64,000 bases of DNA from an uncultured Bacteroidia bacterium (GTDB lineage: Bacteria; Bacteroidota; Bacteroidia; Bacteroidales; UBA932), in NCBI GenBank assembly GCA_902779765.1, contig CACZCQ010000005.1:124001-188000 (forward strand), in the 5' to 3' direction. Position 1 is the stretch's first letter; every line of letters starts with the position of its first letter. Shown here in pieces: positions 50,206 to 57,454 of this stretch. Position numbers and translations under genes: made by a program. Under the pieces are notes generated by a model. The model had not been told where the DNA came from and ran no database searches. It saw only the letters and a program-made list of their open reading frames with translations.

Positions 50206-50323
50206 ATCAAATATTTGGAACTTTGCCAAGAGTGTCAAAGTGTCATGGGTCCGGGTTTCGCATGGATGTTGCATGTCTGCCCGAAAATTACTATATTGTC
50301 GTTTCGGACAATCAAGACTGATT

Positions 50324-52675
50324 ATGGAAATAAAGATATCTGACGAACTCAACGGGATAATCCGCTATGCCAGGGAGGAGGCCATGCGCACCGGAAGCTA
50401 CGGCATCGGCCCGGACCACCTGTTCCTCGGGATGATGCGGCAGGCCGACAACGAGGCCTGCAAGGTCCTGGTCGGACTGGGGGTGGACATCAACGAATTC
50501 AAGCGCTTCATCGACAGCCATATATTCACGAACGAATCGATCCCATATTCGGAATCGGACAAGATCTCATTCTCCAGATACGCACAGAACGTGCTCAGTA
50601 TCACGGTGATGGAGGCATCCAAAATGAACGCTTCGGAAGCCACCTCGCTCCACCTTATGCTGGCCCTCTGCCGCACCACCGAGAACTACGGCCAGGCATA
50701 CCTGCGCCAGCACGGGGTCGACTACGGAAGGCTTCTCGCCTACATGAGGGACGAGGGACTTCTCAACTATTCTTCCAAACAGCAGGAGGAACCCAAATCC
50801 GAGGAAAGTGACGATCCCGCAGAAGAGGGAGGACAGCAGGAAGGAGCCCCTTCCGGCAAGATCAAGATCGAGGATTTCGGCTTCGACCTCACCAAGGCGG
50901 CTGCCGAAGGGACGCTTGATCCGGTAGTGGGAAGGGATACCGAAATCGCCCGGGTGATCGAAATCCTTGGACGCCGCAAGAAGAACAATCCGATGCTTAT
51001 CGGGGAACCCGGAGTCGGAAAATCCGCCATCGTGGAAGGCATAGCCCAGAGGATAGCAGGAGGCAGCATCTCCCCCGCCCTGGCGAAGAAGAGGCTGATC
51101 TCGCTCGACATCGCATCAGTCGTGGCCGGAACCAAGTACAGGGGCGATTTCGAGAAGAGGCTCAAGGCCATCATCAAGGAAGCCAGCACCAATCCCGACA
51201 TAATCCTGTTCATAGACGAATTCCATACGATCGTAGGTGCAGGAGGTGCCCAGGGCAGCCTGGACGCCGCGAACATGCTCAAGCCCGCCCTCGCCAGGGC
51301 TGAGCTCCAGTGCATCGGAGCCACTACCATGGATGAATTCGCGAAGATCATAGAGAAGGACGGAGCCCTCGACAGGAGGTTCCAGAAGATCGTGGTCGAG
51401 CCCACGGACATCAAGCAATCGATCTCCATTCTCAACAACATAAAGTCCAACTACGAGGAATTCCACAAGGTGACTTACAACGAGGAAGCCATCGAGGCTT
51501 GCGCCCGGCTGACCGACCGCTATGTCACAGACAAGTTCCTGCCGGACAAGGCGATAGACGCAATGGACGAGGCCGGATCGATGGTTCGCCTGAGCCTTAC
51601 CAAGGACAAGAAGACGGGGAACGTGGTGGATGCCGAAGACATCGCCACGGTTGTCTCCAAGATGACCGGAATCCCGGTCAACAAGGTGGCCGAGAGCGAA
51701 GGCAACAGGATAATGAAGATGAAGGAACGCCTCCAGGGCAGGATCATAGGCCAGGACGATGCGATCGACAAGGTCGTGAGGGCGATCCGCCGCAACCGTG
51801 CCGGACTCAAGGATCCTGACCGCCCGATCGGGACCTTCCTCTTCTTCGGACCCACCGGAGTCGGAAAGACCCAGCTGGCCAAGTGCCTTGCTGAATATCT
51901 GTTCGATTCGGAAGAGAACATGGTCCGTATCGACATGAGCGAGTATATGGAGAAATTCACGGTCTCGCGCCTCATCGGAGCGCCTCCGGGATATGTCGGT
52001 TACGAGGAGGGCGGACAGCTCAGCGAGAGGGTGCGCAGGAAACCGTACTGCGTTGTGCTCCTGGACGAGATCGAGAAGGCCCATCCGGACATATTCAATA
52101 TCCTCCTGCAGGTCCTGGACGACGGGCACCTGACGGACAGCAACGGCCGCGTGGTGAACTTCAAGAACACCATCGTCATCATGACTTCCAATGTCGGCAG
52201 CCGTGAACTTGATGAATACGGTACCGGAGTGGGATTCGCCACCGCGGGGAAAAACGTGACGCAGAACCGCCAGAGCGTCCTGGAGAAGGCCATCAAGAAG
52301 AATTTCCCGCCCGAGTTCATCAACAGGGTGGACGAGCAGATATTCTTCAATTCCCTCACGAAGGAAGACATCGAGAAGATCATCGACATCGAGCTCAAGG
52401 ACCTTAAGGAAAGGGCTGAGGAATCCGGATACAAACTGACCATCACTCCCTCGGCCAAGAGGTTCATCGCCGATGCCGGTTATGATCCAGCATTCGGCGC
52501 AAGGCCTCTGAAGAGGGCTGTGATGAGATACGTGGAAGATCCCGTCTCCGAATTCATCATCTCCGACCGTATCCTTCAGGGACGCCACAAGAAGGGCTCG
52601 ACAGAGCTCCGCACCCTCAAGGTCGGCCTCACCCCCGAGAAGGACAACACCCTGGTCACCCTCAAGGAGGACTAA
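50324..52675 (+). CDS. clpC: ClpC/ClpA-type AAA+ unfoldase
   Basis: 783 residues from ATG at 50324 (MEIKISDELNGIIRYAREEA); the upstream open frame lacks homology. Clp_N repeat domain (1-140), a polar linker (about 150-185), AAA-1 with Walker A GEPGVGKSA and IDEFHTIVGAGGAQG, AAA-2 with GPTGVGKTQ and LLDEIEKAHPD, then a D2-small domain. There is no long ClpB-type middle domain. It feeds substrates to ClpP; clpP is not in the window. Confidence 0.94.
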   Translation: MEIKISDELNGIIRYAREEAMRTGSYGIGPDHLFLGMMRQADNEACKVLVGLGVDINEFKRFIDSHIFTNESIPYSESDKISFSRYAQNVLSITVMEASKMNASEATSLHLMLALCRTTENYGQAYLRQHGVDYGRLLAYMRDEGLLNYSSKQQEEPKSEESDDPAEEGGQQEGAPSGKIKIEDFGFDLTKAAAEGTLDPVVGRDTEIARVIEILGRRKKNNPMLIGEPGVGKSAIVEGIAQRIAGGSISPALAKKRLISLDIASVVAGTKYRGDFEKRLKAIIKEASTNPDIILFIDEFHTIVGAGGAQGSLDAANMLKPALARAELQCIGATTMDEFAKIIEKDGALDRRFQKIVVEPTDIKQSISILNNIKSNYEEFHKVTYNEEAIEACARLTDRYVTDKFLPDKAIDAMDEAGSMVRLSLTKDKKTGNVVDAEDIATVVSKMTGIPVNKVAESEGNRIMKMKERLQGRIIGQDDAIDKVVRAIRRNRAGLKDPDRPIGTFLFFGPTGVGKTQLAKCLAEYLFDSEENMVRIDMSEYMEKFTVSRLIGAPPGYVGYEEGGQLSERVRRKPYCVVLLDEIEKAHPDIFNILLQVLDDGHLTDSNGRVVNFKNTIVIMTSNVGSRELDEYGTGVGFATAGKNVTQNRQSVLEKAIKKNFPPEFINRVDEQIFFNSLTKEDIEKIIDIELKDLKERAEESGYKLTITPSAKRFIADAGYDPAFGARPLKRAVMRYVEDPVSEFIISDRILQGRHKKGSTELRTLKVGLTPEKDNTLVTLKED

Positions 52676-52827
52676 AAGGGTAGGCTTGGCGCCTTGCACA
52701 CATCTTGCTCCTTTAGCGGCCCTCACGTCCATGTACGTCCCTCACTCTACGTACATTACCCATATAATGCCTAGGCTGCTCCCTGTGTTGTTCTTGTCGC
52801 GGATGCACATCGCACCCCGTCCAGTGT
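52676..52827. other. Intergenic DNA after clpC with a short inverted repeat
   Basis: No gene seen. ATGTACGT (52731-52738) and ACGTACAT (52749-52756) make an 8-bp perfect stem with a 10-nt loop but no T run, so it is not a clear terminator. Confidence 0.5.
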
Positions 52828-52905
52828 CGGTTGCACTCCGGCAGTTTATGCCCCGGTTGCACTCCGGCAGTTTATGCCTCGGTTGCACTCCGGCAGTTTA
52901 TGCCC
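52828..52905. repeat. Tandem repeat, 3 x 26 bp
   Basis: Three head-to-tail copies of a 26-bp unit starting CGGTTGCACTCCGGCAG; only one base differs (last base of copy 2). Each unit contains the small hairpin GGCA-GTTTA-TGCC. A short open frame across it is not convincing. It directly abuts the hairpin-repeat array that follows. Confidence 0.9.
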
Positions 52906-52928
52906 CATGATATGCAGGCCGGTCATTC

Positions 52929-53220
52929 GGGAGGCAATTTACCCGTCAAAATGCTGCCGGCATCAGGGATTTGGACGTTCGGGCGGCATTTTACCCACAT
53001 AAATGCATCCTAAGTGCTAAATTCATGAATTTGGGGGTCATTTTACACCTTGGAATGCAGCCTAATTGCTCAAATCAAGGCTTCGGGCGGCATTTGGCTA
53101 CCCAAAATGCTTCCCTAGCACTTAAATAGAGGCGACGGGTGGCATTATGACCCTGATAATGCTGCCAGCAACCAAAATTTGATCGTTCGGGCGGCATTTT
53201 ACCCATAAAAATGCTACCGT
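52929..53220. repeat. Array 1 of the 52-bp hairpin repeat (about 6 degenerate units)
   Basis: Units begin (TTC)GGG at 52929, 52981, about 53033, 53085, 53137 and 53189, a 52-bp period. Each holds an imperfect palindrome GGCGGCATTTT-ACCC-AAAATGCTGCC-like, then an A/T-rich spacer (for example TGCTCAAATCAAGG at 53068-53081). The reverse complement of array 2 reads GGCGTCATTTT...AAATGCTGCC with spacer TGCTCAAATTAAGG, so this is the same family in inverted orientation. The last unit overlaps the stop codon of the transposase gene. Confidence 0.85.
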
Positions 53221-54081
53221 TTATTCGAGATGCTCATAGGAAAGAGGGAGTCAAGCGTTGTGACAGGGATGTGGAGGATCCTCGATATTTTCGCATTATC
53301 TGCCTTATAGTCAAAGTGCAGGGTCCTGGCCAATTCGTTTTTCTGGCTGAAAGTCAACATGGAGGGCTTATCTTGCGAGTAACGCTTGTTGCAAATGGAA
53401 TAAACTATTCCGACGAGTTCATCATCCGTGTAATAAACCTGATCCCCCAACGACTCGGCCAATTCCTTATATGACTCCAGGTCTCTGGATAATTTGAACA
53501 TAGATCTTTGCCCTGTCGGACAGGTCGCCGAACAGCTCTCCTCGCCGTGATTTGGCGAAGGGGTTGAAATAATAGGCATTGGCTCCATAAGGAAATGAGA
53601 ACGGAGTTTGATCGGGATCCACGACGAAATTGTTGCGGTTTGTATAACAGATTTGATTCCGGAGGGACTCCAAAGTAGTGATCGGAATCGGATCTGCGTT
53701 GAAATCTCTGAAGTCACGACTTTCACCGTTGGTTTGGAAGTACTTGGTCAGACGCTTGCGGTACAAATCCAGGAAGGATGACGCATCCTCCTTCCCGGAA
53801 CAGTCAAGGATAAAGTGGACATGGTTGCTCATCAGTTCAAAGGTAATTATCCGTACCCCGGCATCATATGAGCAAACCGCGGCCAGGATAGTGCCGAACT
53901 TGTAATCCTCAGGTGAATCGAAGATAATGTACTGACTGTTTCCAGGAGTACAGACATGCCAGAAAGAACGGCCCTGCCTCAAGGCATCCTCAAAGATAGC
54001 CCGACATCGGTTTTCCTTTTCATTGAATGAGTGCAGACGAAGGTTCTCGCCGTGATTTTGGATAAAAGATGAAGTTCCCAT
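53214..54081 (-). pseudogene. RAYT-like (Y1/HUH, REP-associated) transposase, interrupted by a one-base frameshift
   Basis: Two overlapping frames make one protein. The N-terminal part (54081 to about 53500) has ITFELMSNHVHFILD, the HUH metal motif (HVH) of Y1 transposases, with a candidate catalytic Tyr in RLTKYFQ and a later ICYTNRNNFV segment like the usual Y-x-x-x-NP region. After DLSDRAKI the frame must shift by +1 (near 53500) to reach MFKLSRDLESYKELAESL and an HTH-like tail LTFSQKNELARTLHFDY...ISRIL, ending at 53214. Domain order fits Bacteroidota RAYTs. It is flanked by inverted arrays of the same hairpin repeat. Either a recent decay mutation or, less likely, programmed frameshifting. 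There is a weak GATCTTTG box at 54110-54117. Confidence 0.78.
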
Positions 54082-54457
54082 AGAAGTTAGTTTAAGCGTT
54101 CAACTATCACAAAGATCGCAAAAACTATCAGAAAAACAACCCCGCTTCCTCCTTCATGCCTAACTCCTGTAAGGCACTCGATTGCGACACTAGGCCGCAT
54201 ACCAGCAAGACATTAAGTTGCATACTTCCGATACATCTCGATGGAATATCCACGAAGTACTCGGTAGTAAACTCACAAGACACTCGCTGAACATTAGCAA
54301 GATACTTGACTGAATACCATAAATGTATTCGAAGCATAGTCGCAAACATTCAGATCCTTATCGAAATGCCATTCGAGGGTACAGACAAGATATTCAGCGA
54401 ATTATCCGGTTATTCATCCACACGATTGCGGTAACATAGGGGTTCCCGGGAGTGGAC
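54082..54457. other. AT-richer intergenic DNA upstream of the transposase gene
   Basis: No convincing gene. A 73-codon minus-strand frame (54128-54349) lacks any known feature. Loosely repeated CAAGACATT / CAAGACACT / CAAGATACT / CAAGATATT words recur at irregular spacing (54206-54395) and may be decayed repeats. Confidence 0.4.
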
Positions 54458-54508
54458 GGCGTCATTTTGATAGTGAAATCGCTTCCGGAAGGGTGTTTTC
54501 CGGCCTTT
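54458..54508. repeat. Inverted, degenerate copy of the 52-bp repeat at the left edge of array 2
   Basis: GGCGTCATTTTG (54458-54469) and AAATCGCTTCC (54476-54486) follow the array-1 orientation, opposite to the adjoining array 2, giving a tail-to-tail pair like a REP doublet. Confidence 0.55.
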
Positions 54509-55160
54509 GGGCAGCATTCCAAGGGCTATAATGACGCCCGGAGTCTTAATATGAGTGGTTGGGAAGCATTCAGGGGCACTGAATGACGCCAGGAACCTTA
54601 ATTTGAGCAGTCAGGCAGCATTTAAGGGGGCAAAATGATGCCCAGAGCCTTAATCTGAGTGGTCGGGCAGCATTTAAGGGGCAAAATGACGCCCGGAGTC
54701 TAAATATGAGTGGTCGGGAAGCATTCAGGGGCACTGAATGACGCCAGGAACCTTAATTTGAGCAGTCGGGCAGCATTTAAGGGGGTAAAATGACGCCCAG
54801 AGCCTTAATCTGAGTGATTGGGAAGCATTCAGAGGCAATGAATGACGCCCAGAGTCTTAATCTGAGTGATTGGGAAGCATTCAGGGGTACTGAATGACGC
54901 CAGAAGCCTTGATTTGAGCGGTCGGGCAGCATTTAGGGGGCGAAATGACGCCAGGAACCTTAATTTGAGCAGTCGGGCAACATTTAAGGGGGCAAAATGA
55001 TGCCCGGAGTCTTAATTTGAGCAGTCGGGAAGCATTCAGGGGTACTGAATGACACCAAAAGCCCTGATTTGAGTAGCCGGGCAGCATTTAAGGGGGCAAA
55101 ATGACGCCCGGAACCTTAATTTGAGTGATTGGGAAGCATTCAGGGGTACTGAATGACACC
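54509..55160. repeat. Array 2 of the 52-bp hairpin repeat (12 full units plus one partial)
   Basis: Units start at 54509, 54561, 54613, 54665, 54716, 54768, 54820, 54872, 54924, 54975, 55027, 55079 and 55131 (51-52 bp each, head to tail). Type A units pair GGCAGCATTT with AAATGACGCC around AAGGGGGCA. Type B units pair GCATTCAG with CTGAATGA around GGGGYA. Spacers read CTTAATTTGAGCAGTC-like. Units 2 and 5 are identical. The period is not a multiple of three and no frame persists, so it is non-coding; there are no unique spacers, so it is not a CRISPR. Confidence 0.92.
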
Positions 55161-55195
55161 TTGAGACAGGCGGCCAATAAACGGGCAGCACGCAA

Positions 55196-55324
55196 TCAGG
55201 CGGCCCTGGAGGCGGAGTCGAGTTCAAGGCCCATATCGCCCATTATGTCGAGGAGGGCGGAGAAGGAAGCTTCAGAAGAGATCATCGAAGCGAGAGTGTC
55301 GAGATTGTAGTCCGTGTTCTTCAT
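55196..55324 (-). CDS. Small protein of 42 residues
   Basis: Reads MKNTDYNLDTLASMISSEAS at the N-terminus and ends GLELDSASRAA: acidic, helical, with no signal peptide. An exact -7 box (TACCTTTG, 55353-55360) sits 28 bases upstream of the ATG, which supports real transcription. It is divergent from the GH92 gene. I do not recognise the family; it could be a leader peptide or a small regulatory protein. Confidence 0.5.
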   Translation of the reverse strand: MKNTDYNLDTLASMISSEASFSALLDIMGDMGLELDSASRAA

Positions 55325-55352
55325 GGCTATGGTGTTTATTTGTTTTCTGATG

Positions 55353-55360
55353 CAAAGGTA
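55353..55360 (-). promoter_or_regulatory. -7 box for the 42-residue small protein
   Basis: TACCTTTG on the minus strand, exact TAnnTTTG; no convincing -33 element at standard spacing. Confidence 0.5.
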
Positions 55361-55367
55361 CTGCACG

Positions 55368-55390
55368 CTTGTGCTGAACCACGGCACAAG
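55368..55390. promoter_or_regulatory. Inverted repeat in the divergent promoter region
   Basis: CTTGTGC (55368-55374) and GCACAAG (55384-55390), perfect 7-bp arms with a 9-bp spacer, between the two divergent -7 boxes. It may be an operator shared by the small-protein and GH92 promoters. Confidence 0.45.
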
Positions 55391-55415
55391 CTAAATTTTT
55401 CACAAATATTTTTGC

Positions 55416-55423
55416 TAAGTTTG
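55416..55423 (+). promoter_or_regulatory. -7 box of the GH92 promoter
   Basis: TAAGTTTG (exact TAnnTTTG), 15 bases before the GH92 ATG, with T-rich sequence upstream. Confidence 0.6.
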
Positions 55424-55438
55424 TAAAAAGATACAGTC

Positions 55439-57454
55439 ATGGGCATTAGGAAAATCCTCACCCTCCCGGCGATCATGCTGTTCCTGCTTCCGGGATTCAG
55501 CACGCAGGGCAGAAGTCTCCCCGGAAATCTGAAATACGTCAACCTGTTCATGGGAACAGCCGGAGACAACGGCCAGGTCAATCCAGGCGCAGCCGTCCCG
55601 TTCGGGATGCTATGCCTTAGCCCAGACAGCGACCCCAGGCAGCATGCCGGCTACGACTTCGCCGTGCCCAAGACCACCGGAGTCTCGATCAACCGCCTCT
55701 CCGGAATCGGCTGCAGCGGAGTGGGCGGCAACCTGAGGATCAAGCCCACAACGAAAGACGAGGAACTCCTGGTTGTAAAAGGAACCGAGGAAGCCGTCCC
55801 GGGATATTACAGGACCCAGTTCAGCAACGGTGCGACCGGTGAATTCACTGTCAGCAGGACGGTCGCCTTCGAGAAATGGACGCTGCCCGAAGACGGAATA
55901 ATGTTCATTGATTTCAAGTCCGCTTTCGAACGAAGGAAGACTTCCTGTGAATATAATATCGTCAGCGACAGGGAGATAACCGGACGGATCGAATCCGGCA
56001 CCGCCTGCGGACGGGGGAAGTATTCATTCTTCTTCAGGCTCAGTTGCGACCAGCCTTTCTCCGTCATAGAGGCGGCGGAAACGGAAGCCACCGTGAAGTT
56101 CCCGGGGAAGCAGGTGGAGATCCGGATAGCGGTCTCCCCCATCGACCAGGCTTCGGCTGACAAGGAACTGGAATATGCCGCCGGCAAATCTTTCGAGAAG
56201 GTCCGCAAGGAAGCCCTCGGGCAGTGGAAGGAAAAGCTTTCCAAGGTCAGCGTGAAGGGCAGCACGGAAGAGCAGAGGATCCTGTTCTACACTTCATTGT
56301 ACAGGCTCTATATGAGTCCCATGGACGTCACTTCGTGGGACGGCAAATACCTCGGAACCGACGGAACAGTCTATGATACCGAAGGCCGGAGGGCATTCAA
56401 CAGCTGGAGCATGTGGGACACCTACAGGGCGAAATTCCCGATGCTGCTCCTGCTCGATCCCGAAGCTTACGCCGATATGGCAGCCTCCTGCGTCCACCTG
56501 TTCAGGACCGGTAAGAAAAACTGGGCCACGGACTGCGAGAGCGCCCCTACCGTGAGGACAGAGCATATGGGCCTGATGCTCCTGGATGCATACAAAAAAG
56601 GTATTCCAGTCGACTTCAGGCCGGGATATGACGGCATGGTCAGAGAAGTGCTGACGGAGCTCCCGAGAGAGTCGCCTGACAACCTCCTGGAACTTTGCAA
56701 CGACCTCTGGGCGCTCGGCCAGATTGCAGGAATCATAGGCAGCAAGGAAGATGCGGAGAAGTTCACCGCGGAGGCTGACAGCACCTTCGAAAAGGTCTGG
56801 AAGGAGGTCTTTATGACGGTCACGGACGACTTCTCGTTGATGAAGGACAACGGCCTCTACCAGGGTACGAAATGGCAGTACCGCTGGGCCTGCCCGCAGT
56901 TCAGCGACAGGATGGCCGCATGGCACGGCAAAGAACAGCTGGCCGAGGAACTGGACACCTTCTTCAAGCTCGGAATGTTCAACCAGGGCAACGAACCCGA
57001 CATCCATACTCCCTTCCTTTTCAACTCTTTCGGGAGGCCTGACAAGACCCAGGAATGGGTACGCAGGTACCTGACCGACGACAGCATGGTACATCTCTAC
57101 GGCGGCCAGGCCGAGTACCCCGAGCCCTTCGTTGGCAGGGCGTTCCAGAACAAGACGGACGGCTACGCCCCGGAGATGGACGAGGACGACGGGACCATGA
57201 GCGGCTGGTATATGTTCGCCCAGCTGGGATTCTATCCCCTCAATGTCGGAACCAGCGAATACGAACTCTTCTCCCCCATCTTCGACCGGATAACCATCAG
57301 GACCGGCGGTCACAAGGTCAGGATCAAGGCCTCCGGCCGAAAGTCCTACGAAGCCCCTGTCAGGGAGATCCTTGTCGACGGCAAGAAGCTTGACGGATGG
57401 GAGATGGACCACGGAATATTCAGGAAGAACTCGAAGATCATTTTCAAATATTAG
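55439..57454 (+). CDS. GH92-family alpha-mannosidase
   Basis: 671 residues with signal peptide MGIRKILTLPAIMLFLLPGFS. The N-terminal beta-sandwich starts YVNLFMGTAGDNGQVNPGAAVP. The (alpha/alpha)6 catalytic part has FNSWSMWDTYRAKFPMLLLL, NQGNEPDIH and the acidic PEMDEDDGTMSGWYMFAQLGF, matching the GH92 catalytic acid/base and calcium region. GH92 enzymes are inverting, calcium-dependent exo-mannosidases that trim host or yeast mannans. The usual length is 700-780, so this is a compact member. No SusC/D pair is nearby. The permease gene starts 4 bp after its stop. Confidence 0.92.
   Translation: MGIRKILTLPAIMLFLLPGFSTQGRSLPGNLKYVNLFMGTAGDNGQVNPGAAVPFGMLCLSPDSDPRQHAGYDFAVPKTTGVSINRLSGIGCSGVGGNLRIKPTTKDEELLVVKGTEEAVPGYYRTQFSNGATGEFTVSRTVAFEKWTLPEDGIMFIDFKSAFERRKTSCEYNIVSDREITGRIESGTACGRGKYSFFFRLSCDQPFSVIEAAETEATVKFPGKQVEIRIAVSPIDQASADKELEYAAGKSFEKVRKEALGQWKEKLSKVSVKGSTEEQRILFYTSLYRLYMSPMDVTSWDGKYLGTDGTVYDTEGRRAFNSWSMWDTYRAKFPMLLLLDPEAYADMAASCVHLFRTGKKNWATDCESAPTVRTEHMGLMLLDAYKKGIPVDFRPGYDGMVREVLTELPRESPDNLLELCNDLWALGQIAGIIGSKEDAEKFTAEADSTFEKVWKEVFMTVTDDFSLMKDNGLYQGTKWQYRWACPQFSDRMAAWHGKEQLAEELDTFFKLGMFNQGNEPDIHTPFLFNSFGRPDKTQEWVRRYLTDDSMVHLYGGQAEYPEPFVGRAFQNKTDGYAPEMDEDDGTMSGWYMFAQLGFYPLNVGTSEYELFSPIFDRITIRTGGHKVRIKASGRKSYEAPVREILVDGKKLDGWEMDHGIFRKNSKIIFKY

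Follow-up and report, generated by a model that had tools for sequence, protein, structure and literature searches.

A decayed RAYT-like gene between inverted tandem arrays of a 52-bp hairpin repeat, inserted at a site that is empty in most related genomes examined

In the 64,000-nucleotide stretch of DNA analysed here (the window, G000:C5:124001-188000, from a genome of 2.48 Mb and 31 contigs), a broken RAYT-like gene lies between two oppositely oriented arrays of one hairpin repeat (Table 1). With a probability of roughly two in three, this locus is a decayed REPtron-like unit that was inserted as one piece, made up of a RAYT-type HUH gene and tandem arrays of its cognate hairpin, and for the formation of the arrays we infer a role of the enzyme. 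The best reading of the locus together with its relatives is a genus-level REP/RAYT-like system that has decayed in the window. The arrangement noticed in the original prediction is real. It exemplifies a wider pattern, of which the copy in the window is decayed, inserted and inverted.

Table 1 Positions of the features at the locus, in window coordinates
Feature	Position	Strand	Basis or remark
Clp-type ATPase gene, left neighbour of the insertion	50240-52675		Identity read from sequence
Inserted piece: RAYT-like gene, both arrays, 26-bp repeat	52676..55195	.	Neighbours adjacent in 8/9 relatives
Three 26-bp direct repeats	52828..52906	+	TRF; 24-mer search
Array 1: 6 hairpins, 52-bp spacing, more diverged of the two	52929..53219	+	Hand-set units, covariance model
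170-aa ORF, later part = C-terminal region of RAYT-like gene in the other frame	53214..53726	-	Six relatives align in frame 2
204-aa ORF, Y1 transposase domain of RAYT-like gene	53467..54081	-	Pfam Y1_Tnp; relatives align in frame 1
Candidate catalytic tyrosine, with YTNRN instead of Y---NP	53644..53646	-	Homology, aligned with relatives
NHVH (HUH motif)	53815..53826	-	Motif position in sequence
Array 2: 13 hairpins, 51-52-bp spacing, higher-order repetition	54509..55161	-	TRF, hand-set units
42-aa ORF, right edge of the insertion	55196..55324	-	Translation (MKNTDYNLDTL...); similar sequence beside Clp-type gene in relatives

As originally predicted, two arrays of one 52-bp hairpin flank the gene and are inverted with respect to it, with six units on the plus strand and 13 on the minus strand. 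TRF reports a period of 52 in both arrays, counting 12.5 copies for 54509-55157 and 2.3 for 52978-53095. Each unit consists of a 31-nt hairpin followed by a spacer of ~21 nt; the hairpin is the first and the last element of both arrays, and in array 1 the final hairpin shares bases with the 3′ end of the RAYT-like gene. Hairpins have a mean identity of 80% inside array 2, 70% inside array 1 and 66% across the two arrays, and for spacers the values are 70%, 33% and 43%, respectively; the two between-array values indicate a single repeat family in opposite orientation. The hairpin has an outer stem of 4 pairs and an inner stem of 5-6 pairs, separated by a 2x2 internal loop. Standard pairs fill 84% of its 190 pair cells compared to 35-45% in slid registers, and a covariance model built from the 19 window units recovers 19/19, as expected by construction. 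Of 500 shuffles, 16 reached the covariation score and 18 the number of doubly changed cells; the paired percentage was attained in 78, the number of doubly changed pairs in 493 and the number of pair types in 467. The pairing is therefore backed by its register and less by covariation, for which the support is mixed. Folding as DNA of four of the 19 hairpins gave z values from −1.05 to −4.27, indicating that single window hairpins are weak. No Rfam match was obtained within 52600-55450 at E <= 0.1. On the unit strand, array 1 contains a single GTAG-type tetranucleotide (GT[AG]G) and array 2 contains none, and it is absent from the 12 nt before each window hairpin; on the opposite strand, GT[AG]G is present three times in array 1 and four times in array 2. 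The units stand head to tail, which differs from the two inverted REPs forming one long hairpin of a REPIN.

Array 2 also shows higher-order repetition: TRF detects periods of 52, 104, 155, 207 and 259 bp, and unit identity is 0.83-0.84 at lags 3 and 6 compared to 0.67-0.79 at other lags. Based on this repetition, array 2 probably grew by duplication of blocks of several units. The 26-bp direct repeats each contain a small GGCA...TGCC palindrome, and their length is half of 52. The TRF row at 52828-52906 represents this different, 26-bp repeat in three copies and does not belong to the 52-bp array; a 24-mer search of the genome allowing <=3 mismatches returned these three copies and none elsewhere.

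The gene between the arrays had been described as a single Y1/HUH-type gene at 53214-54081. The NHVH motif does lie in a Y1 ORF, but the gene is not in one frame: it is divided over two ORFs, and ~45 residues are missing. The window ORF scores 23.9 bits with Pfam Y1_Tnp (cut-off 23), 14 bits with NCBI REP_Tyr_transpos (below its cut-off of 80) and 18.5 bits with the IS200 transposase model (cut-off 55). Six relatives align in frame 1 up to residue 159-180 and resume in frame 2 at 218-227, and in the four with the longest first piece only a few window codons lie between the two parts, which indicates that ~45 codons are gone. Judged from these alignments, the gene is broken by both this loss and a change of frame. 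A programmed frameshift was rejected as an explanation because residues are missing in addition to the frame change. The candidate catalytic tyrosine is invariant among eight other relatives. As its gene is broken, the window enzyme probably amplifies nothing at present, so the local amplification by it that was first suggested is not supported as a present activity.

Relatives of the protein are concentrated in one genus. A query of 175 residues of the window ORF identified the family in 23 of 25 genomes of the genus (its own included), at 103 places in all; none of 16 genomes representing 16 further families of the order gave a match. At the strict threshold of E <= 1e-8, a profile built from eight L005 relatives matched 2 of 197 genomes drawn from the order, both of this genus. 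The window genome holds five other family genes, which are 24-28% identical to the window query. The eight aligned relatives are 283-294 aa long with the tyrosine in Y---N, and most fetched loci have open frames of ~290-350 codons. Among five relatives scanned, one exceeds the Pfam Y1_Tnp cut-off of 23 and four score 19.8-21.3 bits; with REP_Tyr_transpos, all five fall below the cut-off of 80 (19-39.5 bits). The predicted RAYT-like identity is supported by the best of five structure models of one relative, L129 (mean pLDDT 83.9; others 61.5-82.2), for which the REP-bound RAYT 4er8 is the only match among solved structures at E <= 0.001 (E 1.6e-4, TM 0.61 by target length), with IS200-type transposases next. 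A search of solved structures by sequence with the eight-relative profile gave none at E <= 0.1. The C-terminal region beyond the Y1 core is helical in the L129 model, and one of the five relatives gives a weak HTH_23 match (14.6 bits, under the cut-off of 24.6). Eight related loci with record titles belong to uncultured Bacteroidia or Bacteroidales, and four of these titles mention rumen or omasum. A more distant Y1 gene of the window genome (L006 4861-6400; NHYH, YLYNNP) has one similar palindrome on each side (ATGCGTAG...CTACGCAT).

The stretch 3′ of the Clp-type gene was compared in nine genomes taken from the 40 other genus genomes searched. Sequence like that of the 42-aa ORF recurs 3′ of the Clp-type gene in 9/9 of the relatives fetched. 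Examination of relatives for an empty site had been proposed along with the original prediction, and such a site is found in eight of the nine, where the small ORF lies within tens of bases of the Clp stop (G020, G016 and G003 called by BLAST; G053, G052, G049, G002 and G019 by eye). The whole window piece of ~2.5 kb between the Clp-type gene stop and the 42-aa ORF is thus an insertion. The ninth relative, G017, which is the closest by its Clp-type protein (96% identity), carries a different insert with a 699-aa ORF at this position (L108 217-2316), indicating that the site took insertions more than once.

The wider pattern is a shared spacing. In a sample of 92 of the 103 family places (11 were left out), scanning the flanks by lag reveals a single strong peak, at 50-53 bp, which is echoed at 100-105. 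A repeat of 50-53 bp is present in a flank at 31 of the 92 loci, and in both flanks at 15; 17 other bands of equal width are positive at 0-5 of 92 loci, and 2 of 407 background tiles are positive at 50-53 bp, a control that favours the period reading because the tiles are mostly coding DNA. The repeat sequences vary from locus to locus while the period stays, with the longest TRF arrays reaching 16.7 (L033) and 14.4 copies (L040). This similar spacing of different sequences in about a third of the relatives suggests that the enzyme family may set the repeat length. Periodic flanks are more frequent downstream (27) than upstream (19) of the gene. Some arrays begin 6-42 bp after the gene stop (L058, L035, L033, L037, L048 and L021) and others farther away (235 bp in L040, 293 bp in L009). 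Hairpin density is 1.71/kb within 300 bp of the genes and 0.32/kb at 800-1300 bp, with a background of 0.24. A tree was built from 86 of the 92 proteins, leaving out six shorter than 240 residues, one of them the window protein. In it, 29 of 30 periodic loci fall in two clades of 24 and 31 rows with supports of 82/81 and 97/84, of which the larger clade is well supported and the other has only 82/81. The period label changes 15 times on this tree compared to 25.2 times when shuffled, and 0/500 shuffles are as low. Among eight records of a separate collection, 52-bp arrays occur only in L135, on both sides of the gene; these have the same orientation, as read from the TRF units, and the upstream array ends ~1 kb before the gene.

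A link between these repeats and RAYT presence, raised with the original prediction, is supported by the 31 periodic loci; 61/92 loci are without the period. In agreement with the link, a genome with no family match (G013) has 0 arrays of 50-53 bp in 420 kb, a small sample, and four genomes with the gene have three in 600 kb (G023, 2 in 320 kb; G003, 1 in 20 kb; G017, 0 in 140 kb; G016, which has 74-bp arrays, 0 in 120 kb). This comparison points in the right direction with numbers too few to carry weight.

Whether the units occur away from their genes had likewise been raised at the outset, with confinement to the locus in all strains and no relation to RAYT presence named as a sign against the idea. 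The window unit answers to the first half of that description: 19 copies and two opposite-strand echoes in array 1 lie at the locus, and under strict filters its genome has one weak match elsewhere (E 0.0014, at C23:14352) and the 40 other genus genomes together have one more weak match. Yet such arrays go with RAYT loci. Among the six RAYT-flank units searched, two are dispersed, two have one weak or distant match and two are private. The private units (L005 and L037) have no match outside their own loci in their genomes, and the L047 unit is present in both flanks with one 74% match elsewhere. The 74-bp L065 unit has 42 matches in G016, at its own locus and 11 further places (L191-L196), and the L009 unit is found in G023 at its own locus and seven further places. 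In at least two systems, then, units are also found elsewhere and are still in tandem. A motif scan with the L009 unit finds head-to-tail runs of up to 10 units at 50-52-bp gaps with some breaks; in this family, hairpin identity is 85% and spacer identity 62%, and 33 units give no covariation signal, the columns being nearly invariant. At the L065 locus, the 74-bp hairpin repeat extends over >500 bp on both sides of the RAYT-like gene. In G023, a 52-bp array (L124 10333-10466, G023:C3:110332) has no RAYT-like gene found within its 20-kb stretch, and its unit has two more matches at one other place (G023:C1:152476-152765). A 167-bp segment between array pieces (L184 1549-1716 and L190 1728-1902) is common to the L009 gene locus and a dispersed array (157 identical, 94%), as if copied with the units.

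The inverted layout of the window is the less common one. Among 88 loci with enough flank (four were dropped; threshold, 99th percentile of 528 mismatched pairs), upstream and downstream flanks match at 56, where the direct alignment scores higher in 40, the inverted in 15, including the window, and the two are equal in one; palindromes blur this distinction. Inverted flanks had been expected as the rule, an expectation rejected on these counts. Inverted matching flanks, about 116 bp long in L090 and about 128 bp in L095 and present also at L085, L096 and L077, resemble the TIRtrons of Di Nocera 2013. Concerted evolution of the two flanks is not claimed: homogenization of one flank with the other is visible in L051 (92% between its two flanks, compared to 70-83% in their best alignments to those of L005), absent in L005 (70% between its own flanks) and not clear in L025/L046 (87-88% inside one genome, 89-96% for orthologous flanks).

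For the preferred reading, a REPtron-like unit decayed in the window, the following course is proposed. The enzyme would bind the hairpin in single-stranded DNA, cut at the hairpin foot with its tyrosine and move or copy hairpin plus spacer next to other hairpins. Such copying would start arrays, at a minimum as hairpin-spacer-hairpin, and recombination would then lengthen them; the unit of 51-52 nt would be fixed by the enzyme or its dimer geometry and not by sequence. Several results speak against this course, namely the undispersed window unit, the private or nearly private units of L005, L037 and L047, the absence of a GTAG foot, the 61 loci without the period and the single positive record of eight. 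In addition, plain segmental duplication gives higher-order repetition like that of array 2. In an unlikely alternative, replication slippage or unequal exchange makes and lengthens the units as ordinary tandem repeats that the RAYT gene merely adjoins. The repeat periods and lag peaks of array 2 are consistent with it, as are the four of six units that are private or have a single weak or distant match elsewhere. Against it stand the one period at repeats of different sequence beside family genes and the units at many further places in two genomes, and the comparison of G013 with the gene-carrying genomes, small as the sample is, also leans the other way.

The insertion of the whole piece where relatives have an empty site, the inversion of the window arrays and the long inverted ends at some sister loci (L090, L085) would also fit a two-ended mobile element of the TIRtron or IS kind, whose arrays are terminal repeats and whose gene and ends move together. 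This is rather improbable, given that no second copy of the gene or of the unit array was found in the window genome, that direct flanks outnumber inverted ones at sister loci and that two species retain an orthologous locus at the same place (L005 and L051). It is more improbable still that the arrays are regulatory, with the C-terminal, possibly HTH-like region binding them as operators or iterons for self-control and transposition being secondary. The helical C-terminal region with its one weak HTH_23 match and the arrays that begin just after the stop are in line with such a role; the occurrence of the L009 unit at seven places away from the gene and the excess of periodic flanks downstream of genes argue against it.

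Beyond the REPtron-like reading, a more far-reaching version is put forward tentatively and with considerable doubt: a RAYT lineage of one genus may build and spread head-to-tail arrays whose unit of 51-52 nt is set by the enzyme for any hairpin sequence. If so, REP-like DNA would evolve as satellite-like arrays and not as scattered singlets or inverted doublets. The spread of REP sequences is described as unresolved in the part of PMC8266576 consulted. One genus here holds many diverged enzyme-repeat pairs with a common unit length; in some the repeats stay at the gene, in others they form dispersed arrays. These pairs constitute a natural series for asking if the repeats are products of the enzyme and what determines the unit. 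The window locus, as a decayed member, is mainly the entry point to this pattern, which is the interesting part.

Among known systems, the REPtrons or REP-RAYT (TnpAREP) pairs of Proteobacteria likewise have a Y1/HUH gene flanked by its own hairpin family, with a different hairpin per gene and a stem interrupted by an internal loop, and a REP-bound RAYT is the nearest solved structure to L129. In the Marinomonas REPtrons, as in the loci here, the repeats are concentrated close to the gene, according to the passages seen of PMC8266576. In contrast to REPtrons, the present loci have no GTAG foot and a head-to-tail spacing of 50-53 bp, and their proteins are longer (283-294 aa among the eight aligned relatives), have an additional region at the C terminus and score well under the REP_Tyr_transpos cut-off. 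In Quentin et al. 2018, subclass 2.6 (Bertels group 5) is similar in its occurrence in Bacteroidetes, its atypical secondary structures in the flanks and its copies elsewhere in the genome; its table length of 179 aa is shorter than the proteins here, and the words "tandem" and "array" are absent from the portion of text available (PMC6006769). The long proteins with a C-terminal extension of subclass 2.1, or TIRYTs (Di Nocera et al. 2013, PMC3733652), are also comparable, and some loci here likewise have long inverted ends. However, subclass 2.1 is described, in the same portion of PMC6006769, as being without REP-like structures nearby, whereas the loci here have hairpins, a separation based on descriptions and not on reference sequences. 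Of the TIRYT-type C-terminal HTH/DnaA_C feature, only the weak HTH_23 match in one of five relatives and the modelled helical region are seen. IS200/IS605 elements move as gene copies, and the other family genes of the window genome are only 24-28% identical. A fixed 51-52-bp period across unrelated repeats has no account in the literature searched, which covered few subscription papers, and the available RepRanger text (PMC12306157) contains neither "RAYT" nor "tandem".

The layout itself, originally taken to be without precedent, has one in the tandem REP/REPIN clusters of Pseudomonas fluorescens SBW25, which are the nearest precedent in the sections consulted of Bertels and Rainey 2011 (PMC3116915). 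There, ordered tandem clusters are published, one by each of three RAYTs, together with other tandem clusters elsewhere in the genome, among which opposite orientations occur, and two arrays of evenly spaced single REPs. As far as those sections describe them, the SBW25 clusters are mostly inverted REP doublets with named spacings of 71-184 bp; the arrays here, in contrast, are single hairpins placed head to tail, with one period across families of different sequence.
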